DNA from: Henricia sp. BOLD:AAB3569
Taxonomy: Eukaryota; Echinodermata; Asteroidea; Spinulosida; Echinasteridae
NCBI GenBank assembly: GCA_037783545.1
Contig: JBBELK010000319.1
Span: forward strand, 1-64,000
DNA length: 64,000 nt
Direction: 5' to 3'
Part shown: positions 2,944 to 62,025 of the stretch, piece after piece
How positions within the stretch are numbered: the stretch's first letter is position 1
How the letters are laid out: each line of letters begins with the position of its first letter
The notes under the pieces: generated by a model
Seen by the model: the letters and a program-made list of their open reading frames with translations, nothing else
What the model was told of the DNA's origin: nothing
Databases searched by the model: none
Position numbers and translations under genes: made by a program

Positions 2944-4677
2944 TTTCAATGACACACTGCTGGTTCATTCCATGTCAAATCAACCAGTGGTCCCCATGTG
3001 ATCCTCTCAGATTTTGATGAAATTTCATAAGAATGATTGAGTGTGGCCCAAATGAACACATACCAAAAAGTAAAATCATACTCCATGTGGTTTTCGAGAT
3101 ATAGCCAGTTGAAATTTGGTCGAAAGGGCCATTTTGTGCGCGCGCGAGTCGCGAAAAGTGATTTTTTTGTGATATTAAACTGAGATGCCGAAACTGTCTA
3201 ACAGTTTCGGCATCTCAGTTTAATGGTACGTGTTTGCAGACGTATCCGTGTGACATAATACTAATTTGGTGTAAACAAGTCGAGATTAATTTTATACGTA
3301 CCGCTCCCGTGTCAAACGGCTCCCATACGTTGTCCTACGTGTGGCTGATCCGTATCACGTACGAGGAGACCGCATAAAGTGATGACGTCAAAGCTGAAAA
3401 TGGTACGGATACGTATACGCGCGCGGATTTTGAGCTTGCCGAAACTGTCTATATTCCGACATTGAAAGCTCATAGTTCAGTCTTTGTACCAGGTAGAGAG
3501 CTCAAATTTGGTATTCTAGCTTACTTCTTGGCAACATTCTTTAATCTGCACTCAATTTAACTGTATCTCCTTTATTTTTCTAGTTATGGTCACCCAAAGT
3601 AGGCACTTTATTTTTTGGGTAACCCTGTGCCCACATGAGGGGTCAAATGAATCCTATATTCCCTAGGTATTATCTATGGGTGCATTCCTATACCCATAAG
3701 CAATTATAAGCTCACCAATGCATTAATTAAGAAATGGCATGGGCCCAACGTTGGCTCCAGCCAGAAAAAGGTCAAAAAGACCCCTCCCGTCTTGACCCCA
3801 GTTGACCCCGCGATCAATTGAATTTGTTTTTGAAATTTACACCAGTTAAACATATATATATTATATCTACTTCTGCACCAAATTTCAGCTTTGGCACTCA
3901 ACTCCTTTATGGTGTGGTGGCAACTTAAGAAATATACGTTTTCCGCAAATGTTGTTTCTCAAACTTATATATTGATCATGAAATGAATAGTATTCCAAGG
4001 CCTACAGTGTATGCATGAGCACATGTGTTTATATGTCTGATTCTCTCACTTAATGCCTCTGCTACAAAATGCCTCTGGAGTGGTGTATTGAAGTACTGTC
4101 CTGTCAATGTGTTATGTTTTGAGAGGCAACTCGGGGAACTGACTGACTACATAAATATATGCATTGACATTTGTAGTGTCTGCATGTGACACACAAGTAG
4201 TATTGTTCTAGAATGTAGTGTCTACATGGGCTATTTCACAATAAGTGGTCATTTGAGTAAATTACAGTATAACCCATCCTGGATAACTTTATCAGTGCAA
4301 ATACATGTTATGAGTGATTTTATATGATAGGTAATAAGGACAAGCTACAGAACTATTTTTACATAATTCTACGAGTTATTCGTTTTGAATTTCTCTATTT
4401 ACATGCACTTTTAACACCATTTCAGTTTTACATTAGTTTTAAGTGGAATCATTTGTTGATGATGCATTATTGTGGTGAATTTGGTGATCAATCATGGATA
4501 TATAGTGTTCAACAATATTGTGAAACTTGGGTTGGTGTAATTCGGTCGAAAAATGTTAATTTTATGAACATTTCAAAATAAAGTGGATTTCCCGTTAAAT
4601 AAAAAATAGTAATGTCCTCTCCAGGACAAGGTATTCATGACAATGGAATAGTTTGGAAATATGTACTCACAAGCATG

Positions 4678-5921
4678 CACTGTAAAAATTAAGTAGTCAT
4701 TTTGCACCAAACATTAGTCAAAAATTTGCCCTTTGTGCAGCTGCTTTGAGGCAGCTCTTTGTGCACCATACGTGTAACTTATGTTGAGGTACTAGTAGTT
4801 AGTTCGATTAGTAGAACAGCTGAGTGGCGTGATATTCTTTTTGGCGCTGAAAAACGTAACAGCGTACATACGTACGTGACGTGTATACACAGTGTTTAGC
4901 AGCGACAGATGCAGCCACGGCGACAGATCAGACTCAAAAGAGGTAGGGATTTCGTCCATAATTACCTGATTTACGTCCTTCAATCTCGGTAACTTTATGG
5001 CGTGGACTGTACTGAGAACTATAAGGCAGCGGCAACGTACGGATAATTTAGCAAACTGCAGGATTGTGCATTGAATCCCGCGAGTCAAAATCGCGCAGCT
5101 AGGCTATAGGCTATGTGCATATGCCTAGGCGCCCTACGTACGTTTGTACCGTGTACATGTACTGTGACTACAACTTGCATACAAACGTACGTACGTGGAG
5201 TGAGAATGTCTGTCTGCAGTACATGTTTTACATGTATGTTGACAAACAAAGCGATCATGTTTAGTATCGTATGACGAATGTATACGTTCTACATTGCAAA
5301 AGGTTTCTTCATACGTCGAGTAACATGTAACTCGAACGTTGAATGGAATTTGCCTCACAAAATGGCTGTGTTACTCGTGTTAATATTTTTCACAATTTGT
5401 TTCAAAAAAATAATTAGGCCTAGGCCTATTAATATGCGTGTACGTACGTACGTATACTCGTTACAGTGCTTTGCTTTATTGTTCTCAGTACATGTACATA
5501 AATTAAAATCCATGCTATTAAAGTTACGTTGAAAGAGGTAAATCGGGCGAAAGCCCTACCTTACGAGTCTGATCTGTCGTCATTCGGTGGAATACGCTGC
5601 TTATCGCTGGGTGTCGAAATGTCAGACTCGGACTAATTTAGGGTACAAAGACTAATTAAAAGACGAATTATTTTTCGGAATTGACTAATTAAATTTGTTG
5701 AATGACTAATTAATTTTTTTGGAAGACTAATTAAATTTGGTAAATGACTAATCACCCGAAAGATTAGGCAAATTAGACCATTTTTTAAGAATAATTATTA
5801 TTAGTCATTGCACACATGTAATGACTAACCTTTCGACTGGGTGACTAAATAAAGATTAGTCAAATTATACCATGAAATGACTAATTTTTTTTCGTCAATT
5901 GACTACTTAATTTTTACAGTG
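4678..5921. mobile_element. Terminal-inverted-repeat element nested in the foldback
   Basis: The ends are CACTGTAAAAATTAAGTAGT and its complement at 5900-5921. The interior has GTAC-rich stretches and, at the right, a TGACTAATT cluster. No transposase was recognised and no target duplication is clear. Confidence 0.55.
5632..5910. repeat. Irregular cluster of GACTAAT words
   Basis: The words GACTAATT, GACTAA and their complement ATTAGTC occur about a dozen times at uneven spacing. The spacing is too irregular for a simple minisatellite. It lies just inside the right end of the 4678-5921 element. Confidence 0.6.
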
Positions 5922-6939
5922 TGTTTGTATCATCTACAGGACACATTTGATGGAGTAAATATGACAATTTGATCGTGGGAGAGATTTGAGTAAATATTAT
6001 CAAGATCATATTCAGGGTTGTGGAAAATCCGTAAAAAATTTGTCCTCTCCAGGACAGCAGTTAATTGTAATATAACATGTCAACCATGATTGAAATATTT
6101 TATGTTATGTTTGTAAAATTAACAGTACCATTCCTTCTAACAAGACATTGCATGGCATTACCATTTCAACATTTAGTCTGGCCATTATATTGTGATATTC
6201 TTTGTTTAACAAAATGTCCTCTCCAGACAACCAATTACAAATCATTATTTCATTGGAAAAAATAAACATGTTAATCATAATGCCACGCTCTGATATTTTA
6301 GGAATTATTAGTATACATCCTGAAGTTTTTAGATCAACAGAGTTTTTGTGAGTTGGACAAGTTTGAAATTTGACCCCCATTTGCCAATGAGACTGAAAGT
6401 GTACACTTATTGTGAAATAGCCCACATGTGACACACATGCGCATGATATTGTTCTAGCATATCATGAGGGAAAGCTTCAAGGGGACTGGAGTTAGAAGGT
6501 TAAAACCAGAGAGCAATAAGTACTGGCAGATTTGTATTGTGTGGTTTAATCCATGTTTCAAGTGAAACTCTACCACATTACTAGGGTATGGTTCCAAATT
6601 GTGTTGTGTGTAATTATGGGAGATTCTGCGGCACTTTGAGGTACCAGCCTATAGGAGGGTTAACTGAAGTGATTATTTATTGTAGTGGAATACATGCATC
6701 ATCAACCCATTTCTAAAAACAATAATAAAAACAAACTTTTCCTGATGAATTTTAGTGTTGAGTATACTTTTTTTCTAGCTGGGAAAAATAAATTACACAA
6801 GCTTCAAACTTGAAATACACTGTATGATATTAATTTACTGTACGGATTTTTTTTAAATGAGCGAAAAACGTCCAATATTCAAATTGCCACCACACCATGA
6901 AGGAGTTGAGAGCCAAAGCTGAAATTTGGTGTATAAGTA

Positions 6940-7563
6940 CACTCGACCAAAAAAGTTCTGTCACCAGTAAGACATTTGTAGATATTTATTATGAAATTGG
7001 ATTTAATGTAGGAAAATAATATATCAAATTTTAGCTGAACATATCACTCAAAGGAATAGAGCTTAACGGAGTCCATTATGGCAAGCTTCACGGAACAGTA
7101 ATGCAACAAAGGAGTGTGGGGTCAGAATGAAAAACACCAAAAAACAACGATGTCAACTTTATTGCACTCAAGCAAGGGGAGTTACAGTTCAGTATTTTGC
7201 TTCCACCATACCTAATGCAATGGCACGATTCAGATTGGACAATTTAACCATTTTGATTTGGATGTTTTTGACTTTTGACAAGACATTGATCAATCCAAAC
7301 TCACTCAAAAATTTCCTAATTGTCTACACACAAATTGCCCAAATCACAAGTTGCATTGTTCTTTGGTGTTTTTCATTCTGACCCCACACTCCTTTGTTGC
7401 ATTCCTGTTCAGTGAAGCTTGCCATCATGATCTCTCTTCAGCTCTATTCCTTTGAGGGATATGTTCAGCTAAAATTTGATATATTATTTTCCTACATTAA
7501 ATCCAATTTAATAATAAATATCTATAAATGCCTTACTGGTGACATAACTGTTTTGGTCGAGTG
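6940..7563. mobile_element. Foldback element with about 200 bp arms
   Basis: It starts CACTCGACCAAAA and ends in the complement TTTTGGTCGAGTG. The arms carry GGAGTGTGGGGTCAGAATGA and its complement. It is inserted in the right arm of the 2962-8402 element. Confidence 0.7.
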
Positions 7564-7572
7564 TAGATATAG

Positions 7573-7747
7573 TACAGTAAACTCCCGTTATAACACCCCC
7601 TGATATAAAGCTCTTCCTGATATAAAGCTCCTTTTTCCAAGTTCCAGCCATTTTTCCCTGCATTGTGTATGCATTGGCTATAGCGCTCTCTGGATATAAA
7701 GCTCAAACTATTCCAGTCCCTTGAAGAGCGCTATAATGGGAGTTTAC
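7573..7747. mobile_element. MITE with TAAACTCCCGTTATAAC ends
   Basis: The left end AGTAAACTCCCGTTATAAC pairs with GCTATAATGGGAGTTTACT at the right. The phrase GATATAAAGCTC occurs three times inside. It looks like a short non-autonomous element. Confidence 0.55.
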
Positions 7748-8402
7748 TTATGTTTAACTGGTGTAAATTTCAAATAAAATTCAATTGATCGTGGGGTCAA
7801 CCGGGGTCAAGACGGGAGAAGTCTTTTTGACCTTTTTCCTGGCTGGAGCCAACTTTAGGCCCATGCCATTTCTTAATTAATGCATTGGTGTGCTTATAAT
7901 TGCTTACGGGTATAGACATGCACCTATAGATAGTACCTAGGAAATATATTATTTATTTGACCCCTCATATGTGGGCACAGGGTAACCCCAACAATCACAG
8001 AAACAAATTTCGGCTGAATAAAGTGCCTACTTTGGGTGACCATAACTAGAAAAACGAAGGAGATGCAGTTAAATTGAGTGCAGATTCAAGAATTTTGCCA
8101 AGAACTTAGCTAGCATACCAAATTTGAGCTCTCTACCTGGTATATGGACTGAGCTATGAGCTTTCAAAGTCGGAAAATATCACAAAAATCACTTTTCGCG
8201 ACTCGCGCGCGCACAAAATGGTCCTCTCGACCAAATTTCAACTGGCCATATCTCGAAAACGACATGGAGTATGTTTTTACTTTTTTGTATGTGTTCATTT
8301 GGGCCACACTCAATCATTCTAAGACTGATGAAATTTCATCAAAATCTGAGAGGGTCACCTGGGAACTTTTCAGAAAATTTGTTGATTTGACGCGGAATGA
8401 CC

Positions 8403-9168
8403 CTGCTGAAGAAATTATTTGGTAAAGAGTTCCCAAATTTTTGCAATATTCCCCGACTATAGACCGTATCGAATAGCCGCCATTTCGTGGGGCACCTTTT
8501 GTTACTTAAAGTTAAACCGTTTAACAATGGAAGCACAATTATGTGGGACCATGCATGTCATCAAGGAACAAAGAAAATGCCCCACGAAATTGTGGCTATT
8601 CGATTATGTGAAGTCCACAACGACTCTGGAATAATCAGCAGACGTATATTGTTGCAAGCATTGCATGCTGGTACATGTAGTTTCAAGTTTTAATCTTCCT
8701 TAATACAATAGCAGCACTGAACAAGAGCACTAAAAGAATACAAAACGGTTTTACGTCATCTTCGATTCACAAATCTACATTATAGGCCAAGCAAGAAACA
8801 GCTGAAGTCTTACTTAATTTTCCATTACCTTATGACTATTGCACACTCCCAGACAAGAAACGGAAATGCCTTGATTTCATATTTTCAATTATATAGCTGA
8901 CCGGTGTTCCGGGGTTTAAATATTGTACCTCCAGAAGGAAATCCTGGACACCATACTGAATATCCCGATTAAGAAGGTACCACACCCAAGTGCGCTCTAC
9001 AAGTATGTGTATAACCTGACCGTAGGGAAGTACATGTACATTTGCATGGTTGCGTCTGTTAAAGGGGAATTACACCCAAGAAACGAACGACATTGTGCTG
9101 AACAAGTGTAACTCGTACATTATTGTTTATCAACACACCGGTATGGTGCGTGATCACCATTGAAATGA
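8403..9168. other. No gene recognised
   Basis: Contains a pair of similar stretches around 8470-8500 and 8575-8600 (GCCGCCATTTCGTGGGGC and complement-like GCCCCACGAAATTGTGGC), probably arms of a small foldback. No coding signal was found. Confidence 0.4.
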
Positions 9169-10056: not shown

Positions 10057-10059
10057 ACT

Positions 10060-14995: not shown

Positions 14996-15047
<52 letters not shown>

Positions 15048-17962: not shown

Positions 17963-18058
17963 CAGCTTTTCATGCAGGTGTACGTGTACGCCAATGTTCC
18001 AAACTGCTCGCTAGCCAGCAGAGCCCATGTGTACACGTGAGATTGAGAAACTTATGTG

Positions 18059-18467
18059 GGTCTTTCCACAGTAACGGGGGTACATTTCTGTAACATTCAA
18101 GATCTTAGGTCCCACTTCAAATGTCTTAATTTTATCTCTAAATTATCAAGCTAAACTGAGGAAATAACTTTTTCACCAAAGAGTACGAAAAATAGTCCTA
18201 CAACATACATTTGTGAAAACCCCGTGCACAAATTGTCCTATTACGCATGTAACAAAGACGGAAAAAAATGTAACAAAATGGTCTGTCCACGTTACCTACG
18301 TAATAGGAAAATTTGTACACAAGCTTTTTAAAAATGTATGTTGTGGCAGCAATTTTGTTTACCTTTTTGGGCAAAAGTTATCTCCTGAGAACAAAACAAG
18401 GACATTTCTTTAATTCTGAGATAATTTAAAGACATCTGAAAGAAATTACTTATTTATTGGACAGACC
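18059..18467. mobile_element. GGTCTTTCC-ended element
   Basis: Starts GGTCTTTCCACAGTAACGGG and ends TTGGACAGACC. The terminus and early GTAACGGGG resemble the GGTCATTCC group (for example 49751-49990). The flanks TATGTG and CAAGTA give only a weak target duplication. Confidence 0.5.
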
Positions 18468-18469
18468 CA

Positions 18470-24251: not shown

Positions 24252-24420
24252 ATGTGTTCGGAACTTAGGCCTTTTTAGTCATTTTTACTAGTTATGCCAG
24301 TCATTTATATGTATTTGTTAGTGTTTATGAGTGTAACACCGTTTGTTTTTTTGCGTTAGGACCCCGATGGAAATAAGTCGTTATACTAACAGCTTTTTGT
24401 GTTATCCTTACCTTGTTTAT

Positions 24421-24550
24421 ATGTAGTAATATGTAGTAATATGTAGTAATATGTAGTAATATGTAGTAATATGTAGTAATATGTAGTAATATGTAGTAAT
24501 ATGTAGTAATATGTAGTAATATGTAGTAATATGTAGTAATATGTAGTAAA
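24421..24550 (+). repeat. Minisatellite, 13 units of ATGTAGTAAT
   Basis: Twelve identical 10 bp units plus a last one ending AAA. It sits at the 3' end of the LINE and may have grown from its tail. Confidence 0.95.
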
Positions 24551-44100: not shown

Positions 44101-47100
44101 AACCCTAGGGCACGCTGCAAGGCGGATTGAGCTATCGTGAGGTGGCACGTTGTCTTGGCTGTTCACACCAGACGATATCGGCCATGGTGGACAGAGAAAC
44201 CCTCCACAACTCTGCAGATGACAGGCCTCGATCAGGGAGGTCAAGAGTCACCAATGTGTCAATTAGCAATTGTTGGTTTGTTTTATTTTGAACTGTTACA
44301 ATTTCATTACATTTTAAACAAGTGGTAAGTTTCTTTTGCGTTTCAGTATACTGAAATCATACAATTAGGTTGTCATTTTAATGGTGATTAGGCACCATGT
44401 GTATTGCGCTTGATGCTTTTACGTAATGGCGTTTAAAATTTAGATTTTTCAGTTTCAAATATTTGTTTTTAAAAATATGAAACGGATTGTAAAATCAAAA
44501 CTTACTCAAAAATGTGTATGTAAGTTTCAACTCTGCATTAATATTGTAAAACCCGACAGGTATATATGGATCATTCCATGAAGTTGAGGAACACGGTTTC
44601 CGTGTTACATCCACAACCATTTTTACTTTTTGTTTTGCCCTTGATAACCCCATGAATCAATACTATTCAGAAATTCAAGCTGTTGGATGAGAGAAATTTA
44701 AAACATTCTTTACTTGCAACAAAATCCTCATAGATTTAAATTTAGATGTGAACTAAATACAATTTTGTTCAAATGTAGGTGCGACATTTGGTGCTTTTTA
44801 GCAGATTTTCTTTAATCACACAGAAATTTAAGCTAGAATCCTGCAAATTCAAATTAAAAAGGATTGTTTAGTTTGAGAACTGTGTGTTAATTTCAAATCG
44901 AACATGAAAACATTTGTAGTTGGAGTGAAAGCAGTTGAACTGTATTGGTTTCCAAGTTACATCCACAACCACCACTTTGTTAGATAATTCAAAATGGCGG
45001 CACTTTGTCAACACTGAAGACTCCAAAATTACCCCCAAACAGTGTAAGCCACCACATCATGCAACATCGTTATATAAATGGTGATTCATTGCTCCCTTAT
45101 TAACCTTTTTTGTGGAAATGAAGAAATGTCACACTTTGTTCCTCAACTTCATGGAATGACCGATAAGTTAGTACACAGGTTCCCAGTCCCTATGGTGAAA
45201 TCGCTTGCGCGTACATGCACGTACACGAACGGAACTACTGGTAAGTTACACTGTACATGTAGAACATTTCTACCTAGACTCGGAGACTGTATGCATATTA
45301 TGAAGCTCACACAACTGTATTCTGTGACACAGAACATTATGTCACATATGACTAGGAAATTATTTCCCTTAATTTTGCATTGATTTTTCTTTCCACATTA
45401 CCTTCTTCCTTGTCTTCATCCAGCTTGGCTTTATCTTTCAAATCAACCTGAAAAAAATAATGTGCAGAGATACATGTAGTTTATGGCAGGGATCTATTGA
45501 AAGTGGAGTGTCAGGAGAAAAGCATCCTGAGATCTCAGGGAATTTCCACTCTGCAAAGCGACGTAACAATACCCTGAGGAAATACACTCACATTTGTGGT
45601 GTGAGCCGGCTGTTGTCTTGAGCCAACTCACGCCCCAGTCATTTTGATGTAATTAAATGAAATTAGTCGTGTTTTGGTCAAAATTCCAAATATCTATATT
45701 TTCTACAAATTTGTTTGAGTTTTTGTTCTTTGTCACGTTAATCATATCGATAATTCCTGCAACGTTTGTGTCTACTACGCATTTTTTTAACAAAATTAAT
45801 CAGAGGGATGCGGAACGAGTAACGTAATGTCCTGTTCAATAGAAATAGCGACCAATCGGCGTGCGCGTTGGATCGGACATGGACTGTGTTTACAAACTGC
45901 GCGCACGTGTGGCACTGGTAACAAGGTCGATCGTGGAAACACCGAACGCCACATATAACAAGCCTCATGATTGGTCTAGAGAGGCGACAAGATTTCTGTC
46001 GCTAGTCCCACCGCCAAATGGGGCCTTTTTCAACAGGGCCACTGTACGCAGGAGTGAGGGAGTGCGTTAAAGGGGCACTGTTGCAAGAGGATGGGAGAAA
46101 AGTAGCCTTGTCTATGTAGCAGGGATGCAAGTGGCTCTTACCTTCAGGGACGGGAAAAAAAATCGTACGAACGTGTGCACATCGACTTGCCAGAACATGT
46201 ACAGTATGTAGCCTACATATGTACATTGACAGTGTGCAATGTCACCACTGCTGTATGGATACAGCACCCTCTATACATGTAGTCTATGTACTTCTGATCA
46301 ATAGTCTGGTTTCGTGGTACTTTAGCCGTGAATGATTATGGCCGGGATACAGATATACTGCATGTGTGCAAATGATGTACATAGGCTGTACATACATGAC
46401 ATGTATGGCATATCCGGAGATCGTTGATCAGTTAGTGAGACAATTTTCAACGTTTTTTTGGACTTTGAAGAGTTGAAAATAATACATCCGGCCGTTTATT
46501 TTTCCGGCCTGGAAAAAAGGCTTTGCTGGATTTCTTTTTCCAAAATAAGAAAAACCGGAATTCCGGCTATAGCCGGAAGACTGGCATCCCTGACTTACAG
46601 CCAATGTGTTGAGTTTCTCTTCTGCTGTGTCTTCCTCTTCATCATCACTGCTCTCCCATTCACATTCCGAGTCTGTCGGCTCAACGGCACCAGTCACTAC
46701 TTCTTTCCTCTACAGAGAGAAAAACCAAGACAAGGTACAATGCATAGTTCCGATCTGTCAATCAATCCGAACCCGCCGACCAATCACAACAGAGCTAGCA
46801 GACAGCGCCCACATAGGTCAAAGTGCATTGCCACACAACAACATACAGTTTGTACAGTGTTGTATGCGGTGATCCGGGTGAATTTTCGGTTTCAAGGCCG
46901 GACGATTCGCTGTTCAAAGGTAAGAAAGCATGTATTTCATGATGATATGACATCCCTGTATTACTGGCTCTTTACTCAGTGTGTTCTAAGATAACTGTCG
47001 ACCCTGAAACATGAATACCTTTGAGTTTTCTCCAATGAATCTGTGTTTTCCGTTGAAAGTCCCATTGGTTTGTGCAGTGTGTGTGGACATTTTGAGGGAT

Positions 47101-50100
47101 AGCGTGTGAGGCATAGCAACAATATCCAAGGGGGCGGAGTTAACTGGGCAAACTCGGAACTATGCATTCTCTAATAAAAAGTGTGCTAAGGGGCCATTCT
47201 AAAAAATTCAATGCTAACAAATTTAATTTTTAAAAATATTTTTATTTAATATGCAGCGAAAATGTTATCCTGCTCCTCATATGGCAATACACACGCCGCA
47301 CGAACTGATCCGACCCACACACATGACATGCAAACATATCTCATACGATGTACACACATAAAAAAGGCCACCGCTCACATGTGCATGCTGTTTATGAATA
47401 CTAGACTTCACACCAGTCTCTCTACTATTCAAATTATATTGCACACATAGCTAATCATCATCATTAATTTATTTGCTACACATATGCGTACACATACAGC
47501 AGAATTATTGTGGTCATCGTGCTTTAAAAAAAGTAAAGATCCAAACAGTACAAAATATTGCACATTGAATTACACCATAAGAACATTGAATATTACATAT
47601 AATTCCTACAAAACAGTTACGAGATATCACAAAACAAGTTACGACTACTAAGGATTTGCACGCTCACTGGGCCAGGTCGCTAGAGATTGCTCGCACAGTT
47701 GCAGGAACACAACTTTTCCTTTGACGTTTAGAATGCACAGCTAGGGATCTATAGCGCCTACCAGACGGTAACAGTTGAAATAGGTGGTACCCAGGGTGAG
47801 ACTCGTCTGAAATAATACTCCGAGCTCGCTTAAGAACCCTTGTCTCATAAATGGACTGAATAGCCGGCAAATCGAGACCAATGCCGTCTTAACAACCCGA
47901 TTCATAATGCAGAGTGTGCAGTGCAAAGAAAATAATGATTACAAAAACGAAATTTTCCGGTCGTTATCCGGCCTAGACAAGAGGCTTTGCTGGATTTTTT
48001 TCCACAGTTTAAAAAAGCCCGAATTCCGGCTACAGCCGGAAGACTGGCATCCCTGTTTTATGGATGACGACGCAGGGACTGCTGGAGTGAATTTTGGCAA
48101 GGTCTCGATTACATCACAAAGTAAAATGTGCACCTCATTTAATTTGACCCACCTTTTCAAAGAGCGCTTCGTACATTTTGGCATATTTACACTCCAACTG
48201 GTGAACCTCTTCATAGAATTTTGCCTCCATCTGTGTGTACTTCACCTGGTAGTTCTTCAATGCTTTCACTCGTCTTTTGACAACTTTGGGAAAACTTATA
48301 CAGGGGGAACAAATTAAAAAGATTTATTAAAGATAATAATAATAACAGGTTCTTATATAGCGCCATTCCATAGATCATGGCCCTCAGGCAACAAACTCAA
48401 GCAGTGGGAAATAGTTGAGATTTGAAATGTTTCTTGAACGAAGAGGCAGTGACCTGTGTCCTAATGTCAAATGGTAGAGTGTTCCAGATTTTGGGTGTGG
48501 CGATGGTGAAGGATTTATCAGTGATGTTGTTTCTGGATCGTGGTTCAGATAGTAGCATGTTATCCCTACAGGACCGAAGCCCTGCAGCCGATTTCACGAA
48601 ACACTGCGCAACTTGCGCCATGGCGTAAGACTTGCGCCATAACTTTATGGCGTAGCTGCGCAATAAACCCAAGATCGATTTCACGAAACTCTCCTTAGCT
48701 GCGCAACGTTTATTTTCTCACTTCAGCACTTGTAACTTCTAGGACGAGGCTAATTTCTAGTTTATCAACGACTATTGGATGTTTGCGTTTGATAAAATAG
48801 TCATACATAAAACATACGTCGTTGTTTTTCACAAATGTTGCACTGTCATCATGGCTGCCGTCGCTCGGTCATCATGCGTCGCGTCGAAGATTTCACTGAT
48901 AAAGGCCGTTTTCTACTAACGGAAGGCTGGGGTTCAGTTCGTTGACGATACGGTAAATAAGCACGTGTAGCTAGCTGCATTATCGCCACTTTTCACTGTC
49001 CTACGACACATTTTTCCAACTTACGCCACCAAAAACCATTGCGCAAGTTACGCCACATTTTATGGCGTAAGTGGGCGTGTTGCGCCATATCCAAACGTGG
49101 CGCAACTTTCGTGAAACGCGCCGCAACTTATTGCGCAAGTTGCGCAATAGTTTATGGCGTAAGTGGACTTGCGCAATTGCGTAAAGTTTCGTGAAATCAG
49201 CTGCAGGACGGCTTGGTACACGGAGCTGTATACAGCGAAGGAGGTACTCGGGAGCAATTTGGTGAAGGCATTTGAAGACAGAGGGCAATCTTAAATTGGA
49301 TTCCGTGTCGGATGGGAAGCCAGTGAAGTTTGGCAAGTAAAAGCGGAACCGATTCACGCTTACTAACACCAAGTAAGAGTCGAGCTGCACGGTTCTGTAG
49401 TCGAGGTTACATTCTGTAATTCCGAAGAGCAAGGAATTCCCATAATCTACAATGTAGTCGGGATAAGACGAGAGCCCGAATTGCATGGTGACAAGCATTG
49501 AACGTGAGGTATCGACGGATTCGTGAAATGTTACAAAGTTGAAAATGAATACTGCGATTAAGGTTGAGAACATGTGATGACATCGACATCGAAGATTGAT
49601 TAAAAAGATTTATTTTAAAAACCTGGACATATTTTTGGCCTGAAGTGCATCTTACAAAGCATCGACTATTCAAGCTGTGGCTTGTTCATGCAGCGTGTAG
49701 GACTCAATTATACAAAGCATTCAGAGAACTCTTGCACTGTGCAGTTTATGGGTCTTTCTATAAATTAGGGGTCCAATGTTGGTGTCCCCCGTTACATTCT
49801 ACATATTGTTTTTGTAAATTGACACATTCTTTAAATACTTTCCATCTCAAAGAGTGAGTACATAAAGTACAATTAATAGGAAATGGTTTAAAAGCAATTT
49901 TAATGATTTTTGTACGAAAAACAACACATATCAGGTGTAACGGGGGACACCAAATGTCACACTTTTGGACCCCTAATTTATAGAAAGACCCTTATGGTTC
50001 AGAAAGTCTGCTGAGACAGACGAAAAGAGATTTGACAGGCAACCAGTCAAGATGGCGCGTTGCACGCACCGCACCAAACACGGGAAGTCATACAAACACG

Positions 50101-53100
50101 GCCAAACACGGGAAGTCATACTGGGCAAGTTTAGGCAATGCGCAAAAACTGCTGTATAAAAATGGCATTTTTCTCAGGGTTGCCGATGTCTAAAATACAA
50201 AGTATGATGTTTTGTCGATAAAATAAAGTATTTACTTTAAAAATTCGTTCAGATAACAAAAAATCAAATTTGCTGAGAACCGCTCTTATCTTTAAGACAT
50301 ACTGCATCCAAACAAACAGCAATTTTTGCTGCTCTAAACTTGTCTCTGAATAATAAACGTTAAGCAGCAAATACGGTACATGTATAGTTACCGTCTCTGT
50401 GAAATAGCTAGCCTTTTGGCAGGGCCTTATGGCTTTGGGGTTATTTTGTTTGGTAATTAAAATGTAAGACAATTGAGCGTAGTATACCAAGGCTGTGCAA
50501 ACGTTATGCCTTCTGTTTTGCCATAAGGCCTTTTCCGAACTGGCTACTGCTACATTATTCATTACATGCAAGCAGTTGACCCGAACTTGCAACGTCACAA
50601 CAACATTACCCACGCCCCACTCGACACGTAAAGATTTTGAAAACAAATCGAAAACAAACTGTCAACTGAGCCAATAAGCGCTAGGAACCCTTTTTGCACG
50701 CGAAGGTGTGATACAAGTCAAATTGTGATACAAGGAAAATCCGACCAATCACATTGCCTGCGGCATTGTGGACTGGTTCATTATCAATGTAGGTACGGCA
50801 CTTACATTTACTTCGAAAATACCCCATTGAACTCCCTGTAAATGTGTTTAAATTTGACAAATTGTTTCATTCAAGTTTTATACGGAACGAATATAATTTC
50901 CATTTGATTTGATTACTCTGCCGTTTAATTTGCGCAGTTAATTCAAAAGCGTAAGCATACCTCCCTTGTTTGTAGGAGCTCACGACGTAATTTGCACAGG
51001 GTGACCTGCATGTGACTGGCCGATTTCTGCTATCGAATTCGGTAGCGATTATAAAGAAAAACATAAGAATTGCCATGTTTGGCAAAATCTTGTTTGGTTC
51101 AGGCCAAACAAAATAAATGGTGCGTTTACGGTAACGGCCTAAAATAAATCGAGGTAGGTGTAGGTAGGAAAATAATTTTATTTTGTCATTTTTTTTTTAC
51201 ATTTTAGTTCATGCATTTGCGTGTTGTTTTGCAATGTTTGAAACTCACTATTAACACTATTAACCATGTTCATGTACAAGTGCAGAAAATGTTGGAAATT
51301 ATTGCAAATAGTGCTCATTTAAAATTATCAACTTGAAAATTGGCAATAAAAAGTTTGAGGTCGGCAATTTGACCTCAAATTCCAGGTAGGTCAGGTTACC
51401 GTAAACACACCATTTATTTTGTTTGGCCTCATCTGTTTGGTTACAGCACTATTGCTTACCTTTCAATGTATCCACTACGTTGTCCAACTAAATTATCCAA
51501 CTGGTCTTGAAGAGCAGCTAGTACCTTAGGGTTCTGCAGGGCTTGAGTCTTGAGCTCCACTGTAAGAGTTATAAATTAGGGGTTAAAAGTAAGTTTGGCC
51601 AATCTTAAACACACGTTTAAAGCCAGCTAGGGGTCCTGGGCACTGATAATGCCCGAGCCGCCAGGCGAGGGCATTATCAGTGCCCAGCAGCCGATTTCAC
51701 GAAAGAGTGCGCAGCTTGCGCAACTTTTGCAAAATGGCGCAAGCCCCATAGTTTGCGTGTAATTTTCACAGAAGCCTACGCAATAAAATGTTGCGCAAGG
51801 AGACTTACGCAGTGCATAAGGTTTCGTGAAATCGGCTGCAGGACCCCTAGCTGGTTTTAAACGGGTTGTTTAAGATTGGCCAAACCTACTTTTAATCCCA
51901 TTCATAAATACCTTTTCGTGTAAATCGGTAAAATTCACAAAATGAGCTCGTCGTTTTGCCATGTTTTGCATTCACTTTCCTATGCCTACAGTCTAGTGTC
52001 AACACGGCGTTCGTACAACTGCGAGCTGTGCGTGATGTTGTTTTTGTTCGATTGCGCGCGTTACGAGTAACGCAGGCGTGTTGCTCGCGCACACACACGA
52101 CTGGATATAAGTGCACAATTTGCTTTCAGGCGCGTGCAGTTTCTTTGTACATGTGCGTGTTCCATATACGCGCTGACTAGGGCACAAACGCGGGACAGCC
52201 AGCCGGGCATTATCACTATTCTTTATCGCTAATTTAAGACTGCCCACGTGACGTGCTCTCAGCCAATAGGGATGCGTAAACTGTCCAAGGTATTTATGAA
52301 TGAAATTTAAAACATTTTTAGGGAGCGAGACCAGATTTTTCATTCTAACCTAACAATCATATAAAATGCCGTACCTCCCAGAAATACTGAAAAAAACATG
52401 AAATATGCAATCCTCAATTTGGATACATGTGAAAGCAAAACCGTTCGTGTAATCACATGAATTACTGCACTTCTTTATGTAACCACATACATTAGGTTAT
52501 TGAACTTCGGGGAATTTTTGATGATATCCCTAGAAATATATGGGTCATTCCATAAATATGGGGGCCAAAGTGTGACAATTTGATGCATTTGTAAAAATGG
52601 CCTTTTCAAGTTACCAAAATATTTTGAAGAAATTTCCGTGCAATTTCTGAATAGTGTAGGATATTTAAAACAATTTCCAAACATGTCTTGGTGTCATAGT
52701 TTTGATAATATTCAAGAAAATTATTAACGACGTAAGTGTGGACACCAAGTCATTTTTAATTCTTACGATTACATGTACATTTCGACCAGGTTCTTTCTGG
52801 AAAAGGTAGCTTCTGGTTTTACCCACCTGTAGAACCTGTACCTTATAAATTCAAATTATATTATGAGCGAAATTTCAATAATTCTTCAATATAAATTTTA
52901 AAATGTCACACTTGCATTTAGAAGATCGCACCAGTTTATTGAATCGTTCTTGTCATGTTTTGGGTATTATTAACAGGCAAAGGTGTTGTTCGATTTACGA
53001 GGCCATATATTGTTCATATGCTGTTCAAAGATAACCGTTTTCTGAATGTATAAAAATCAACTCCGGAAGTGTCACGACGTAAAGGGAGACACTGGGTCCC

Positions 53101-53604
53101 GTATTTATGGAATGACCCATTATACGGAATGAGGGTGCAAAATTTCAGTATGGTATTGAGAAAAATATGATACATGATATGGTATCAATCTCAACATCCA
53201 TAGGGAAAATTTGGGCTTCAAAAATGTGATTTTGTCACACTCCTTTAAGGCGTTATCCATAAAACTTTTGGATATTAGGTTTTGAAACAAATGATCTGGC
53301 CTGATGCCAGAGAAACTACACATAGTAGCATGAAAATCTGTGTACATGCATGACATGTATAAAAACGCACTTTTTCCCCCGCAGCAAAATTCAGTTGGAG
53401 GCGCACCTTCTACATGTACCGGTACACGTAAACAGAAATTGGCCTCTGTCGGCATGGCCGTTAGTCTAATCACTGGGCAGCCCTATTGTATAAAGGCTTC
53501 TGATGATCACATGACTTACTGGTAGCTTTTTCGACTCCATCCACATCAGCTGTATCCCCCTGAGCTCCAGCATCAATGGTCACCACAGTATCATTGATAT
53601 CCAT
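25367..53604 (-). CDS. nap1l1: Nucleosome assembly protein 1-like histone chaperone (whole coding span, 11 exons)
   Basis: NAP1-family proteins bind H2A-H2B, shuttle them into the nucleus and help assemble nucleosomes. Coding exons, in order: 53604-53520, 51559-51460, 48294-48153, 46709-46599, 45447-45402, 42437-42295, 38381-38242, 35717-35549, 33698-33582, 32658-32635, 25459-25397 (or to 25367). Every border has AG/GT and the phases agree, giving 380 codons. Visible landmarks: an early dimer helix (about 30-109), GIPDFW (166-171), the YQMRSEPDESDPF block, CTIDWKKGKNVT (257-268), a basic KKKQKHKGKG (273-282) that may act in nuclear import, NDSFFNFFSPP, FEIGHFIRERIIPRAVLYFT, and an acidic tail. 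The length is close to the usual 390 residues. It may correspond to vertebrate NAP1L1 or NAP1L4; these cannot be separated here. The 3' end is uncertain. Confidence 0.95.
25397..25459 (-). CDS. nap1l1: NAP1 coding exon 11, acidic tail
   Basis: Acceptor TGTTGCAG. Residues 360-380 read DAEGEEGDEEDENDPEYDPS then K, the usual acidic NAP1 end. AAG|GTCAGT at 25397 is a usable donor to an unseen last exon. Without splicing the frame adds VSSSQSVNM and stops at 25367, with AATAAA shortly after. Confidence 0.85.
25650..25881 (-). mobile_element. tRNA-derived SINE, second copy
   Basis: Same family as 23405-23767: CCAGAGACACCGGGGAATC, GTGCCTTGCTCAAGGGCACA and a tRNA-like head with box A TGGCCGGGTGG. 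Box B has decayed to GGTTCAATACC. It lies in the last NAP1 intron. Confidence 0.75.
26047..27265. mobile_element. GGTCATTCC foldback element, 1.2 kb
   Basis: Ends GGTCATTCCATATGAATTCA and TGAGTTCATGTGGAATGACC. The arms carry TTCTTGTGGGGGTACCCCTA and the complementary TAGAGGTACCCTCACAAGAA. The flanks TCAAAG and CCAAAT share CAAA. Confidence 0.7.
27428..28179. mobile_element. Long-TIR element with TAGCCTTG ends
   Basis: About 120 bp inverted ends (TAGCCTTGACCAAGTCTATG; GGCTGGTTACCTGAATATCT) enclose sequence also found inverted in 16503-17718. No transposase was found. Confidence 0.7.
28320..28422 (+). pseudogene. Tc1-like transposase N-terminal remnant
   Basis: The frame reads NQREQATGRLHAGQRPQMIV, then NVFNCTVRTIYSI and a stop. 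The R..A.G.L.AG......V...F..S..TI pattern is the first helix-turn-helix of Tc1-type transposases. The rest is missing. Confidence 0.6.
28942..29387. mobile_element. GGCAATTCC element, GGTCATTCC group
   Basis: Starts GGCAATTCCCAAAATTAGGG and ends CCCTAATTTTGGGAATTACC. TACTAG and CACTAG flank it. It carries GGTGTCCCAGTTAC at the left and GTCACACTTTTGGACCCC at the right. An inverted copy is at 42687-43129. Confidence 0.8.
29496..29600 (+). pseudogene. Tc1-like transposase N-terminal remnant, frameshifted
   Basis: Reads MAKGPRLSKEKGK, then after a one-frame shift VITLRNEGQSYRQIAN. This is the start of a Tc1 transposase: basic leader, then the G.S.R.IA helix-turn-helix. The frameshift and stops make it dead. 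Confidence 0.75.
29951..32341. mobile_element. Long-TIR element with about 390 bp arms
   Basis: Ends AGACCGGCAGCCCAGAGGGT and its complement, with ATATT on each side. The arms at 29955-30365 and 31985-32341 are nearly identical inverted copies. The core is unique and carries a degenerate segment twice (ATTTGACGCGCGTTGCTTGA-like, 31010-31200). No transposase was seen. Confidence 0.75.
32635..32658 (-). CDS. nap1l1: NAP1 coding exon 10, 24 bp microexon
   Basis: Acceptor TATTCCAG, donor GAT|GTAAGT. It encodes YEEEGEED (residues 352-359), in phase 0 at both ends, so skipping would keep the frame. The TTAA of a large transposon (28550-32627) lies one base beyond the donor hexamer. Confidence 0.85.
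33007..33451. mobile_element. ACGT-rich palindromic element
   Basis: Ends AAGACCCAGAGGGGACATTT and AAATGTCCCCTCTGGGTCTT. The centre (33050-33400) is more than ten copies of TACGTACGTGATAATAAT in both orientations. It lies in the intron after exon 9. Confidence 0.8.
33582..33698 (-). CDS. nap1l1: NAP1 coding exon 9
   Basis: Acceptor GCTTTAG, donor GAG|GTAAGC. Residues 313-351 include LLSADFEIGHFIRERIIPRA and VLYFTGEAIEDDE, the conserved close of the NAP domain before the acidic tail. Confidence 0.95.
34365..34515. repeat. TTCGCCC repeat array
   Basis: Phrases CGCCCCAAAACCACTTCG and CGCCCAAATGCCACTTCG in tandem, followed by the complement GGGCGAAGTGGTTTTGGGGC. The same array is in 55128-55315. 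Confidence 0.75.
34617..35137. mobile_element. Palindromic insertion inside the nested TTAA element
   Basis: 34620-34770 is a strong hairpin around CACCCTCGGCTTTGCCTCGG. An outer inverted pair is TTGTTATATCCCGTCTCATG and CAAGACGGGGTATAACAA. The sister copy at 55411 lacks this block. Confidence 0.7.
35164..35370. mobile_element. TTTTCGCG-rich short element, copy 1
   Basis: Ends CTGTAAAAGCCAATGTTTTC and ATATTTCAGCTTTTACAG, with TATA on both sides. ATTTTCGCG or its complement occurs about seven times inside. The inverted copy is 62180-62400. Confidence 0.8.
35549..35717 (-). CDS. nap1l1: NAP1 coding exon 8
   Basis: Acceptor CTTGCAG, donor GTG|GTGAGT. Residues 256-312 include CTIDWKKGKNVTMK, the basic KKKQKHKGKG that may serve in nuclear import, MVTKTVQNDSFFNFFSPP and an acidic end. 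Confidence 0.95.
36094..36282 (+). CDS. KIAA1958/QRICH1-like (Crypton-derived) N-terminal domain, fragment
   Basis: An ATG in good context (AAAATGG) opens 62 codons: MATAQPRFATIEDDEYDNIL, then SGATRRSTTKAVNILKLYLR, then EKELSEDFEDLSKIEQQV and a stop. The pattern RF..I.(D/E)(D/E)....L......T(R/K)......A.....YL.EK recalls the N-terminal domain of KIAA1958/ZMYM/QRICH1-type proteins, which descend from Crypton tyrosine recombinases. I infer this by eye. No good donor precedes the stop and the recombinase part is missing, so it may be a gene relic, or a first exon interrupted by decay. It lies on the strand opposite NAP1, in intron 7. Confidence 0.45.
   Translation: MATAQPRFATIEDDEYDNILQNRESGATRRSTTKAVNILKLYLREKELSEDFEDLSKIEQQV
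36427..36531. mobile_element. 105 bp palindrome
   Basis: GGGTGATATGAGAATATACC and GGTATATTCTCATATCACCC face each other, with GGATGTCTTT and AAAGCCATCC outside. Confidence 0.7.
36990..37611 (+). repeat. Two-unit tandem repeat, about 300 bp
   Basis: Both units carry TTTCTCTATTTTATCCAAT, TTAGGGCGAC, TCGAGAACCATTTTTATTAG, TTGGTGTCCAATCGATGTCT and AGTCTTACCGG. Inside each, AACCATTTTT-like words repeat on a shorter scale. Confidence 0.85.
37612..38160. mobile_element. Repeat element pair, copy 1
   Basis: Inverted copy of 51576-52303. It has GTGACGTGCTCTCAGCCAAT-like sequence and a strong right-hand hairpin (CCAGCTAGGGGTCCTGGGCA and complement). The 111-codon frame here recurs in the other copy but resembles no protein I know. 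Confidence 0.75.
38162..38197 (+). repeat. (ATT)n microsatellite
   Basis: About 12 ATT units next to the 37612-38160 element. Confidence 0.95.
38242..38381 (-). CDS. nap1l1: NAP1 coding exon 7
   Basis: Acceptor CTTTCCAG, donor GG|GTGAGC. Residues 210-255 read GFTLEFHFSANDFFSNPVLT, then KSYQMRSEPDESDPFSFEGP. This is the beta-hairpin region of the histone-binding earmuff domain. Confidence 0.95.
38490..38727 (+). mobile_element. CR1/L2-type 3' end or related SINE
   Basis: CCTGGGCAAGCCACTTAATC, then GCGCCTTGAGCACCCTGCAT and GTGCGCTATACAAATCTAAT with an (ATC)n tail. The GCGCTATA(C/T)AAAT..(microsatellite) ending is characteristic of CR1/L2 LINE tails and SINEs that copy them. No coding part. 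Confidence 0.7.
39055..39125 (-). pseudogene. tRNA-like sequence, probably a SINE head
   Basis: The minus strand has box A TAGCTCAATTGG, a TCTGC/GCAGA anticodon stem and box B GGTTCGAATCC. The acceptor ends do not pair, the T stem is weak and position 33 is C rather than T, so it is not a working tRNA. Confidence 0.6.
39126..40704. mobile_element. PIF/Harbinger-like element with TAA duplication
   Basis: Ends AGCCTAGCGTACATCGACAA and GTCTATGTACATGTATGCTA..GGCT, with TAA on both sides. GCAACTGATCAGTTGC palindromes lie near each end. A TAA/TTA 3 bp duplication is typical of PIF/Harbinger; the assignment is inferred. A foldback is nested at 39540-40070. Confidence 0.65.
39540..40070. mobile_element. 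Foldback with about 230 bp arms
   Basis: The arms share TTGGAAAGCCCTGTTATTCC and its complement, TGACACATCA / TGATGTGTCA, and GTGAAATGTCACAAAATGCA / complement. It is nested in the 39126-40704 element. Confidence 0.75.
40860..41110. repeat. Interspersed repeat (GGAAGTCAGACTTGG family), partial
   Basis: Contains AAATACAAAGTATGATGTTT, GTTAAAATAAAGTAAATGCT and TTGCTGAGAACCATGGA, as at 22840-22940 and 50190-50290. Confidence 0.6.
41126..41641. mobile_element. CAGGGATGCCAG element, complete copy
   Basis: Ends CCGGGATGCCAG and CTGGCATCCCTG, with TACGTA on both sides (41120-41125, 41642-41647). It contains GGCTCTTACCTTCAGGGCCG, TGATCAATAGTCTGGTTTCG and CGGAATTCCGGCTATAGCCG. No transposase. Confidence 0.8.
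42295..42437 (-). CDS. nap1l1: NAP1 coding exon 6
   Basis: Acceptor ATTGTAG, donor ATG|GTAAGC. Residues 162-209 include GIPDFWLTIMRNVEILSDMI and DETILGHLEDVRVKF, the highly conserved start of the NAP alpha/beta earmuff domain. Confidence 0.95.
42512..43200 (+). repeat. Direct duplication flanking nested elements
   Basis: A block of about 60-80 bp (ACCATCACCGTTAGGCCTGT, CATTTTCGAATAGTTTACTA) occurs at 42512-42572 and 43138-43200. The first copy stops 28 bases into the element that is complete at 43173-43650. Between them lie a CTATAAAGAGGCCACCTGTC-type repeat (42573-42660) and the element 42687-43129. Confidence 0.7.
42687..43129. mobile_element. GGCAATTCC element, inverted copy of 28942-29387
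   Basis: Starts GGCAATTCCCAAAATTAGGG and ends CCCTAATTTTGGGAATTACC, with CAGGTG and GAGGTA flanks. Near-identical to the complement of 28942-29387. Confidence 0.8.
43173..43650. mobile_element. PIF/Harbinger-like MITE with TTA duplication
   Basis: Ends GGCCTGTGC and GCACAGCC, TTA on both sides (43170-43172, 43651-43653). The subterminal parts are rich in TTCGAATATTCG. Confidence 0.65.
43794..44346 (+). mobile_element. Tc1-type deletion derivative keeping the transposase 5' end
   Basis: Termini CTGAAACGCAAAAGAAACTT and its complement, TA on both sides. The outer parts match 13566-14120 inverted, but the middle holds the start of the transposase. It lies in NAP1 intron 5. Confidence 0.8.
44095..44260 (+). 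pseudogene. Tc1-like transposase N-terminal remnant
   Basis: The plus strand reads YREVARCLGCSHQTISAMVD, then ETLHNSADDRPRSGRSRVTN. The helix-turn-helix followed by the DRPRSGR.RVT linker is the standard start of Tc1/mariner transposases. The catalytic domain is missing. Confidence 0.8.
44578..45161. mobile_element. GGTCATTCC element, 0.58 kb
   Basis: Starts GGATCATTCCATGAAGTTGA and ends CTCAACTTCATGGAATGACC. It carries TTCCGTGTTACATCCACAAC at the left and GTCACACTTTGTTCC at the right, in the positions seen in the other family members. Confidence 0.75.
45165..46119. other. Intron sequence between exons 4 and 5 and part of a foldback
   Basis: Apart from exon 5 (45402-45447) I see no coding sequence. 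45975-46095 (CGCCAAATGGGGCCTTTTTC, GGCACTGTTGCAAGAGGATG) is an inverted relative of 56560-56670. Confidence 0.45.
45402..45447 (-). CDS. nap1l1: NAP1 coding exon 5
   Basis: A 46 bp exon with acceptor TTTTTTTCAG and donor G|GTAATG. Residues 147-161 read VDLKDKAKLDEDKEE, a charged linker of the kind seen in other NAP1 proteins. Confidence 0.88.
46120..46592. mobile_element. CAGGGATGCCAG element abutting an exon
   Basis: Starts CAGGGATGCAAGTGGCTCTT and ends AAGACTGGCATCCCTG. Same family as 41126-41641. Its last base is directly next to the GTAAGT of NAP1 exon 4. No target duplication is visible. Confidence 0.8.
46599..46709 (-). CDS. nap1l1: NAP1 coding exon 4
   Basis: Acceptor CTGTAG, donor GCT|GTAAGT. 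Residues 110-146 include AVEPTDSECEW and an acidic run SSDDEEED. The EPT..ECEW motif is typical of NAP1. A transposon (46120-46592) directly abuts the donor hexamer. Confidence 0.93.
46738..47168. mobile_element. AATGCATAGTTCCGA element, copy 3
   Basis: Same orientation as 20874-21332, about 430 bp, both ends intact. It begins 28 bases upstream of the exon 4 acceptor, on the intron side. Confidence 0.8.
47450..47935 (-). mobile_element. LINE 3' end with reverse transcriptase C-terminal remnant
   Basis: The minus strand reads AIQSIYETRVLKRARSIISD, then SHPGYHLFQLLPSGRRYRSL and then CVPATVRAI. The SHP....F.LLPSGRRYR block closes many non-LTR retrotransposon ORFs. An AATAAATTAATGATGATGAT tail ends it at 47450. 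It lies on the same strand as NAP1, in intron 3. Confidence 0.75.
47945..48056. mobile_element. CAGGGATGCCAG element, right-end fragment
   Basis: Matches the last 110 bp of 41126-41641, ending CCGGAAGACTGGCATCCCTG. Confidence 0.75.
48153..48294 (-). CDS. nap1l1: NAP1 coding exon 3
   Basis: Acceptor ATAAG, donor AAG|GTGGGT. Residues 62-109 read SFPKVVKRRVKALKNYQVKY, then TQMEAKFYEEVHQLECKYAK, then MYEALFEK. This is the most conserved part of the long NAP dimerisation helix. Confidence 0.95.
48330..49660 (-). mobile_element. LINE fragment with reverse transcriptase remnant
   Basis: In minus-strand order: SMSSHVLNLNRSIHFQLCNI, SRIRRYLTFNACHHAIRALV, VDYGNSLLFGITECNLDYRT, SVFKCLHQIAPEYL, then after an insertion SFTIATPKIWNTLPFDIRTQ. 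This is the thumb and C-terminal part of a CR1/L2/Jockey-type reverse transcriptase. The tail GGCGCTATATAAGAACC plus (TTA)n at 48330 is of CR1/L2 type. It has frameshifts and is split by 48582-49206. Confidence 0.8.
48582..49206. mobile_element. CAGCCGATTTCACGAAA element, long copy
   Basis: Ends CTGCAGCCGATTTCACGAAA and TTTCGTGAAATCAGCTGCAG. The inside is rich in TTGCGCAA/ATGGCGTAAG words in both orientations. It splits the reverse transcriptase remnant of the LINE. Confidence 0.8.
49751..49990. mobile_element. GGTCTTTC element, 240 bp, with target duplication
   Basis: Starts GGTCTTTCTATAAATTAGGG and ends CTAATTTATAGAAAGACC, flanked by TTTATG and CTTATG. It has TTGGTGTCCCCCGTTAC at the left and GTCACACTTTTGGACCCC at the right. 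Confidence 0.85.
50060..50290. repeat. Interspersed repeat (GGAAGTCAGACTTGG family)
   Basis: CAAACACGGGAAGTCATAC occurs twice, then ACAAAGTATGATGTTTTGTC and TTTGCTGAGAACCGCTC. The 171-codon minus frame from 50646 runs into this repeat and is not a recognised protein. Confidence 0.6.
50291..51101. other. No gene recognised
   Basis: Unique intron sequence of NAP1 intron 2. No repeat structure or protein signal stands out. Confidence 0.4.
51102..51428. mobile_element. MITE with GGCCAAACAAAATAAATGG ends
   Basis: Inverted ends of about 35 bp: GGCCAAACAAAATAAATGGT and ACCATTTATTTTGTTTGGCC, each followed inward by TTACGGTAAC-like sequence. It lies 32 bp from NAP1 exon 2. Confidence 0.8.
51460..51559 (-). 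CDS. nap1l1: NAP1 coding exon 2
   Basis: Acceptor CTTACAG, donor AG|GTAAGC. Residues 29-61 read MELKTQALQNPKVLAALQDQ, then LDNLVGQRSGYIE. The QNP.(V/I)LAALQ..LD.LV block is the conserved start of the NAP domain dimerisation helix. Confidence 0.93.
51576..52303. mobile_element. Repeat element pair, copy 2, with insertion
   Basis: Inverted copy of 37612-38160, lengthened by the 151 bp insertion at 51688-51838. It begins 17 bp from exon 2. Confidence 0.75.
51688..51838. mobile_element. 151 bp CAGCCGATTTCACGAAA MITE, dated by an empty site
   Basis: Starts CAGCCGATTTCACGAAAG and ends TTTCGTGAAATCGGCTG, with CAG duplicated on both sides. The other copy of the host repeat (38094-38107) has a single uninterrupted GTGCCCAGGACCCC, the empty site. 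Confidence 0.9.
52543..53117. mobile_element. GGTCATTCC element, 0.58 kb
   Basis: Starts GGTCATTCCATAAATATGGG and ends CGTATTTATGGAATGACC. The left end carries GCCAAAGTGTGACAA, the complement of the family's GTCACACTTTGG motif. It lies in NAP1 intron 1. Confidence 0.75.
53520..53604 (-). CDS. nap1l1: NAP1 coding exon 1
   Basis: Starts ATGGATATCAATGATACTG and encodes residues 1-28, MDINDTVVTIDAGAQGDTAD then VDGVEKAT, an acidic variable leader. The donor is A|GTAAGT, one base into codon 29. Upstream of the ATG is a pyrimidine-biased run ending TTGACAG, so the ATG probably lies just inside an exon whose 5' untranslated partner is further right. Confidence 0.85.
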
Positions 53605-61320: not shown

Positions 61321-61771
61321 ATATGCTCTGTTATCAACAGACATACTTCTAGTTTTCTTTCTTTTTATTAAAACAGTTTTAACAAGTCTGAATCGAGACT
61401 CGTCGCAGTCTGCATATGCGCGCCAAGTTTACATGCAATCACGTACGCACAGAAGTGTCTTGGCGCGGACGAAAGTGTCATAGACTTGGACAAGTCTATT
61501 TACTGTCAATGGAGGGCGCTGTTTTCTTGCTTGGTAAAAACAAGATCGCCCATGCGTGCGCAGACAAAAAGCGGAAAATTAAATCTGCCACACTCAACAA
61601 AAAAGTGGAAACATTGAAAAAATAAACGCATTAAGAAAATTAAAAATGTGGAAATCTGCAGAAATGCGGAAATTTCACATGTACGGCATGAGTCTGTTTT
61701 AATTTAACTTGACAGCTGGACAATTTGGGGAGGCTTTCTAGCTGGCCCGAGACAATTTCAACTGTCATTTG
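61321..61771. other. No gene recognised
   Basis: Short frames only. No repeat partner was recognised. Confidence 0.4.
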
Positions 61772-62025
61772 AGTCATTCTATAAATTTGGGGTCCACTTT
61801 TTCTGTCCCCGTATACATAAAATATGTAAAATTTTGTATTTTATAAATTAAGGATATTCTTTAAATGCCTTCTATTTCAAAGAGTGATTACATAAAATAC
61901 AATTCCTACCTCCATGGTTTGAAGGCATTTTTAATGATACTTGTTTGGCAAATAGCAGTACGTATGTCAGGTGTAACGGGGACAGAAAAATGTCACACGT
62001 TGGACCCCAAATTTATAGAATGACC
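61772..62025. mobile_element. GGTCATTC element with perfect 6 bp target duplication
   Basis: AGTCATTCTATAAATTTGGG to CCAAATTTATAGAATGACC, flanked by CATTTG on both sides (61766-61771, 62026-62031). It carries TCTGTCCCCGTATAC at the left and GTCACACGTTGGACCCC at the right. Confidence 0.88.

Follow-up and report, generated by a model that had tools for sequence, protein, structure and literature searches.

Inverted-repeat elements with 4-bp target duplications in a Henricia genome are probably derivatives of Sola-type DNA transposons

The first 64,000 nucleotides of contig JBBELK010000319.1 of the sea star Henricia sp. BOLD:AAB3569 (the window; C319:1-64000 of a searched genome of 740.7 Mb in 2,104 contigs) contain nine listed repeat elements of widely differing length, eight of which fall into five end types, A to E (Table 1). 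A first-pass annotation had grouped these elements by their ends as a foldback superfamily with target duplications of about 6 bp, and had proposed them as an undescribed transposon group. We found that the target site duplication (TSD) is 4 bp, and that a longer copy elsewhere in the genome carries a transposase-like gene. The elements are probably, for the most part, non-autonomous derivatives of Sola-type cut-and-paste DNA transposons, that is, foldbacks and miniature inverted-repeat transposable elements (MITEs).

Reading the ends of all nine elements gave a terminus of 5'-GGGTCATTCC, which extends one base beyond the boundary first drawn. Most of the listed boundaries shift outward by that one base, and the element listed from 44578 really begins at 44568, about 10 bp further out. 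Of the nine listed places, eight do have matching inverted ends. A paired-end scan, whose rule takes in neither the element at 2962 nor that at 18059 (18058 in the corrected frame), recovered eight inward end pairs in the window, corresponding to seven distinct elements and one cross-pair. In 50 dinucleotide-preserving shuffles of the window the mean was 0.06 pairs and the highest count 1. When the ends are framed as GGGTC...GACCC, the 4-bp flanks of the window elements match exactly in six of nine cases, with one mismatch in two and with two mismatches in one, the flanks of 2962 and 18059 being judged by eye.

Table 1. Elements in the window, with termini and 4-bp flanks in the GGGTC frame
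Position	Element	Ends (left / right)	Flanks (left / right)	Remarks
2962..8403	Type D foldback element, 5.4 kb	GGTTCATTCC / GGGTCATTCC	TGCT at 2958-2961 / TGCT at 8404-8407	
18058..18468	Probable member	GGGTCTTTCC / GGGTCTGTCC	ATGT / AAGT, one mismatch	Palindromic interior
26046..27266	Type E non-autonomous element, 1.2 kb		CAAA / CAAA	
28941..29388	Type B MITE	GGGCAATTCCC / GGGTAATTCCC	ACTA / ACTA	
42686..43130	Type B MITE		AGGT / AGGT	Last base of right end G, not C
44568..45162	Type C MITE	GGATCATTCCATGAAGTTGAGG... end	ATAT / ATAA, one mismatch	Last base of right end G, not C
49750..49991	Type A MITE		TTAT / TTAT	Palindromic across almost full length (67%)
52542..53118	Type A (long subtype) MITE		ATAT / ATTA, two mismatches	Without clean TSD; inside another repeat
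61771..62026	Type A MITE	GAGTCATTC (left)	ATTT / ATTT	

Most of the window elements of 0.24-0.6 kb are MITEs, with detected terminal inverted repeats (TIRs) of 23-29 bp (57 bp for the element at 61771). The name foldback suits the long-armed element at 2962-8403, whose arms are about 85% self-complementary. Among the small elements, 49750-49991 is palindromic nearly throughout and 18058-18468 in its interior. The TIRs of the element at 18058-18468 match poorly past the first 9 or so bases, and we list it as a probable member of the group. The type B element at 42686-43130 is an inverted copy of the other type B element, with 92-95% identity across two stretches.

The length of the duplication was determined on a sample of 47 end pairs, from which five were dropped (one with AGCGATTCC ends and four that lie inside the palindromes L043 and L045). 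The remaining 42 pairs, which leave out the window elements 2962 and 18059, over-represent early contigs, places with type A, and type D copies that bear a transposase. In the GGGTC...GACCC frame the 4-bp flanks are exact in 26 of 42 pairs and differ by one mismatch in a further 11, whereas shuffling the right flanks among elements 2,000 times gave a mean of 3.0 exact pairs and a maximum of 9. In the 6-bp frame only 8 of the 42 are exact, and a 6-bp duplication as a general rule is rejected. The base touching the boundary first drawn is G on the left in 39/42 and C on the right in 40/42, and exact copies of one end genome-wide are preceded by G in 2,255 of 2,330 cases and by another base in 75. 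The outer bases of the 6-bp frame agree between the two sides in only 21/42 and 23/42, with a preference for C on the left (22/42) and G on the right (23/42). Nearly fixed inner bases beside variable outer ones are what one would expect if the G and C are part of the element and the target merely favours C-NNNN-G. The TSD of this group is therefore 4 bp, not 6 bp, with sequences that include ATAT, ATTT, ACTT, ACCG and TGCT. The duplications singled out before, CATTTG, TTTATG/CTTATG, TACTAG/CACTAG and CTGCT, consist of a 4-bp TSD plus one inner base of the element and, in the 6-mers, one outer flanking base as well.

Related empty sites point the same way. Among 44 queries made by joining the two flanks, 11 had a match spanning the junction, and for 7 of these 11 insertions a single copy of the 4 bp at the empty site is supported (L030, L012, window 61771, L011, L002 1501-2007 and L024, and more weakly L010). 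The empty site related to that of window 61771 has a single ATTT and lies at L028 9927-10000, at 92% identity, and the supported sites include that of a type D element, where ACCG occurs once in a match of 90% over 185 bp. Where several empty-site copies were read, 4 of 5 agree for L011 (the fifth has ATTT), 8 of 8 for L002 1501-2007 and 3 of 4 for L024.

Genome-wide, counts were made for the ends of types A, C and D/E, and all are lower bounds. The type A end pattern GGTCATTCCATAAATTNGGGGNCCA, allowing up to 2 mismatches, has at least 4,253 + 4,270 matches on the two strands and the reversed control has 0; type C ends have at least 215 + 213 exact matches, and the ends of types D and E, counted together, at least 110 + 88. 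Type A is thus the most numerous family among those counted. In their common forms, types A, C, D and E differ from one another at no more than one of the 11 terminal positions, and all four have the same TSD length. They thereby satisfy the Repbase rule for non-autonomous elements, in the form in which an excerpt of PMC4455052 quotes it; type B by itself does not, and has ATTAGGGGTCCAAAA in common with some type A ends. The original grouping of the elements by their ends was sound in that they do share their terminal bases and the length of the duplication. In a literature search for the terminal sequence GGGTCATTCC, none of the papers listed concerns transposons, to judge by title.

Two further observations concern ends of this kind. 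On contig C6 (1814130-1839975) eight type A ends lie on one strand, spaced 2-7 kb apart, which suggests a tandem array that contains a type A element. At L026 3090-3325 a 236-bp element with different ends, AGCGATTCCAAAG, is flanked by TTGA/TTAA in the same frame and is possibly a separate MITE family.

The search for a long, transposase-bearing copy, which the first-pass annotation had recommended, led to L046 and relatives, which carry a transposase-like gene. Five long end pairs were fetched from the genome for reading. In two of them, L029 and L030, fragments of one protein are present in both arms, and a 199-aa piece used as a genome query gave 66 matches. L046 (contig C919) is a copy of about 5.2 kb with near-identical ends at about 412 and 5604, inverted arms of about 710 bp that are 97% identical, and open reading frames (ORFs) of 124, 200 and 582 aa, all on one strand, the longest at L046:1533-3278 on the minus strand. 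As a genome query the 582-aa ORF gave 80 matches, between 27 and 100% identical to it, whose open frames reach 908 aa (784-908 aa on C760, C181/C559 and C499); the diverged copies are known from their coordinates and identities alone. The arms of the window element 2962-8403 match the long TIRs of L046 at 68-79% identity in seven stretches, and the type E element at 26046 has short, weak similarity to the L046 ends (24 bp at 87.5%, 109 bp at 68%). The L046 transposase itself has no match anywhere in the window, the interior of 2962-8403 included (tblastn, E<=1e-3). No relatives were found in viral_contigs or plasmids, and none of 205 pattern matches in prokaryotic genome_contigs was confirmed.

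The L046 protein has three candidate catalytic aspartates, in LLDFAENYS (D242), YYSDGAASQ (D325) and GKSPCDGLGG (D366), of which D325 and D366 are invariant in a five-row alignment. Pfam has no match to any of the three ORFs, and NCBIfam (two ORFs), PHROGs and PDB sequences (the 582-aa ORF) gave nothing better than E 0.07. In RNase H-like transposases the catalytic residues are expected after strand b1, after b4 and before a late helix. The second of two AlphaFold models, of the core and of low confidence, has the predicted order b1-helix-b2-b3-helix-b4-helix-short strand-b5-helix (181-196), with the three aspartates after b1, after b4 and just before helix 181-196. Among the 50 matches listed in a PDB fold search with this model, many are RNase H-like (terminase nuclease, RNase H, Hermes, RuvC) and stand beside unrelated folds, which lends weak support to a transposase fold. 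At the C-terminus of the L030 and L046 ORFs (about residues 487-545 of L046), mostly predicted as strands, the best sub-threshold Pfam match is BRWD_AD (L030 C-terminal piece, E 0.0013, 18.9 bits against a cut-off of 40), with a chromo-like domain at E 0.029. This region may possibly be a small Tudor/chromo-like chromatin-reading domain.

The transposase-bearing copies also suggest how some of the long foldbacks arose. The palindrome L043 contains two inverted 1.42-kb stretches, 99% identical to each other, that correspond to the 3' half of L046 at 99.7 and 98.7% identity; the duplicated half comprises the element end and the transposase C-terminus. One pattern of opposed transposase matches, covering residues 280-582 and 404-582, recurs on contigs C158, C469, C697 and C1774, and the flanks of L043 and L045 differ. 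A common pattern at four places with differing flanks is most simply explained by a single rearrangement that then spread, so some long foldbacks would have formed by inverted duplication of the 3' half of the element itself and been dispersed afterwards. A second set of opposed matches, at 59-73% identity to the L046 protein, lies on C82, C772, C1037, C64, C475, C366, C627, C288 and C888. On C534 (L044 and L047) there is a shorter relative of L046, identical in parts at 98-100%, consistent with internal deletion of an L046-type copy.

Among described superfamilies, the 4-bp duplications and the candidate DDD transposase (one with three catalytic aspartates) fit Sola. The Sola1, Sola2 and Sola3 transposases are reportedly treated by Bao (2009) and by Yuan and Wessler (2011). 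Sola elements have a DDD transposase, 4-bp TSDs, lengths of mostly 2-9 kb and TIRs of 11-1,124 bp, according to the available sections of PMC10741241; L046, with its 5.2 kb and its arms, lies within that size range, and it too has three candidate catalytic aspartates. The Sola2 TSDs given in an extract of PMC3627910 are AT-rich and of the form AWWT, such as ATAT and ATTT; here the TSDs are likewise AT-rich, and in type A often AWWT-like. Insect MITEs have also been assigned to Sola1-3 in the published excerpts. A difference is that the TIRs of Sola2-Fanzor are 12-21 bp in the same extract (PMC3627910), far shorter than the arms of L046. Long inverted arms recall the Drosophila foldbacks Galileo, of the P superfamily, and Tetris, as far as partial accounts of them go; Galileo belongs to another superfamily, and here some of the arms are an inverted element 3' half including transposase code. 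Ginger elements have a 4-bp TSD as well and an rve integrase-like transposase, whereas the three L046 ORFs have no Pfam match. Kolobok and piggyBac have 4-bp duplications too, which are TTAA-specific in the available part of PMC9587614, whereas the TSDs here are varied, with no TTAA target, and Pfam gave no match.

We therefore place the elements, with fairly good confidence, mainly as non-autonomous MITE and foldback derivatives of Sola-type transposons. A copy that has type D ends was seen to contain a transposase-like gene, and one foldback family was traced to such a copy. In the mechanism that we propose, rare larger copies would encode a DDD transposase that binds the shared GGGTCATTCC ends and excises the element, and reinsertion with a 4-bp stagger, favouring C-ATAT-G-like sites, would create the 4-bp duplications. 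The L046-type protein would be the one that mobilises the elements, acting by a DDD mechanism, and types A, B, C and E may be moved by it or by a sister transposase. What suggests a link of types A, B and C to the L046 group is their terminal bases and TSD length.

Several observations weigh against this placement. The placement draws on the length of the TSD, on the candidate DDD triad and on the lack of a Pfam match, with Sola represented by its published description only. Two or more mismatches at 4 bp occur in 5 of the 42 pairs, the L010 empty site (75% identity) carries a gap immediately beyond the 4 bp, and at 4 of the 11 empty sites (window 52542, L007, L022 and the nested L002 1622-1857) the comparison is ambiguous or the bases disagree, L022 having TTAT in one of four copies and TTAC in three. 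The outermost bases of L046 depart from the consensus, and by eye its frame is interrupted by an intron between the first two ORFs and by one in-frame stop between the last two, so that this copy is probably inactive. A clean 4-bp duplication was seen, by eye, around neither of two L046-type copies (L046; L044 and L047); a third transposase-bearing copy lies at C611:844631. D242 is present in L046 and L044 only, both AlphaFold models are of poor confidence (predicted local distance difference test scores of 33 and 38), and no match in the PDB fold search reached E<=0.001. Of its first 11 positions, type B has 2-3 that depart from GGGTCATTCCA. Finally, comparing type A ends with the transposase coordinates gave no pair among the ends listed (up to about 100 places), which is not evidence of absence.

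The last two points, together with the confinement of between-type similarity to the ends, would also be expected if types A-C were unrelated MITEs whose ends had converged and which were moved by different superfamilies. We think this unlikely, as types A, C, D and E, being so alike in their 11 terminal positions and in TSD length, satisfy the Repbase rule as excerpted in PMC4455052, and type B has its ATTAGGGGTCCAAAA in common with some type A ends. A distinct, undescribed superfamily of DDD transposases that has 4-bp duplications in common with Sola would account for the empty results from Pfam, NCBIfam, PHROGs and PDB sequences. Sola may itself be without a Pfam model, which makes a missing match weak evidence, and the AT-rich 4-bp TSDs, candidate triad, length of about 5 kb and long TIRs all match Sola as far as the published accounts at hand describe it; we regard a new superfamily as quite unlikely. 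Equally doubtful is its fuller form, in which an unrecognised transposase superfamily, with many copies 27-46% identical to the L046 protein and with 4-bp TSDs made inside palindromic C-ATAT-G sites, mobilises thousands of GGGTCATTCC MITEs and spawns mobile foldbacks over and over by inverted 3'-half duplication.

Superfamilies with a true 6-bp duplication, such as IS3EU and Dada, could claim the 8 of 42 pairs that are exact over 6 bp. These eight cases follow from the C-NNNN-G target preference, the outer positions match in just 21 and 23 of 42 pairs beside an almost fixed inner base, and the G is fixed at 2,255 of 2,330 ends, so an origin of this type is extremely improbable. Academ-type transposons are long elements of animals and may carry helicase or nuclease domains; no Pfam match to either was found in the three L046 ORFs. 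The length is similar, with a bivalve Academ mean of 5,565 bp in the portion of PMC10294476 available. The Academ TSD is 3 bp in the corresponding portion of PMC5199201, and exact 3-bp flanks occur here in 0 of 42 pairs in the GGGTC frame and in 2 of 42 in the frame first used, which makes Academ very unlikely.

Other repeats in the window are of different kinds. A 10-bp unit, ATATGTAGTA, is present in 13 perfect copies at 24419-24549, and units of the TACGTACGTGATAAT type, some of them inverted, form an imperfect satellite-like array at 33046-33426. Related repeats of AAACCACTTCGCCCC-like 15-16-bp units occur at 34410-34504 and 55123-55319, with inverted forms nearby. Long G runs lie at 1579-1666 and 14999-15046, the second being 48 pure G, and inverted 300-bp arms at 29956-30255 and 32040-32339 are 98% complementary and 1.8 kb apart.

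Taken as Sola-type derivatives, the elements look like an abundant, ordinary member of a kind already known at superfamily level, rather than the undescribed group proposed at first, and their individual families may be unnamed so far. The group had been hard to place because of the misread duplication, and the source of that error is now apparent: an inverted repeat that starts with G, inserted into targets that are often C-NNNN-G, makes a 4-bp TSD look like 6 bp. The analysis connects a candidate transposase with an abundant group of MITEs and foldbacks. It also offers what would be a clean example of foldbacks that are born when an element's own 3' half is duplicated in inverted orientation, and that spread afterwards.

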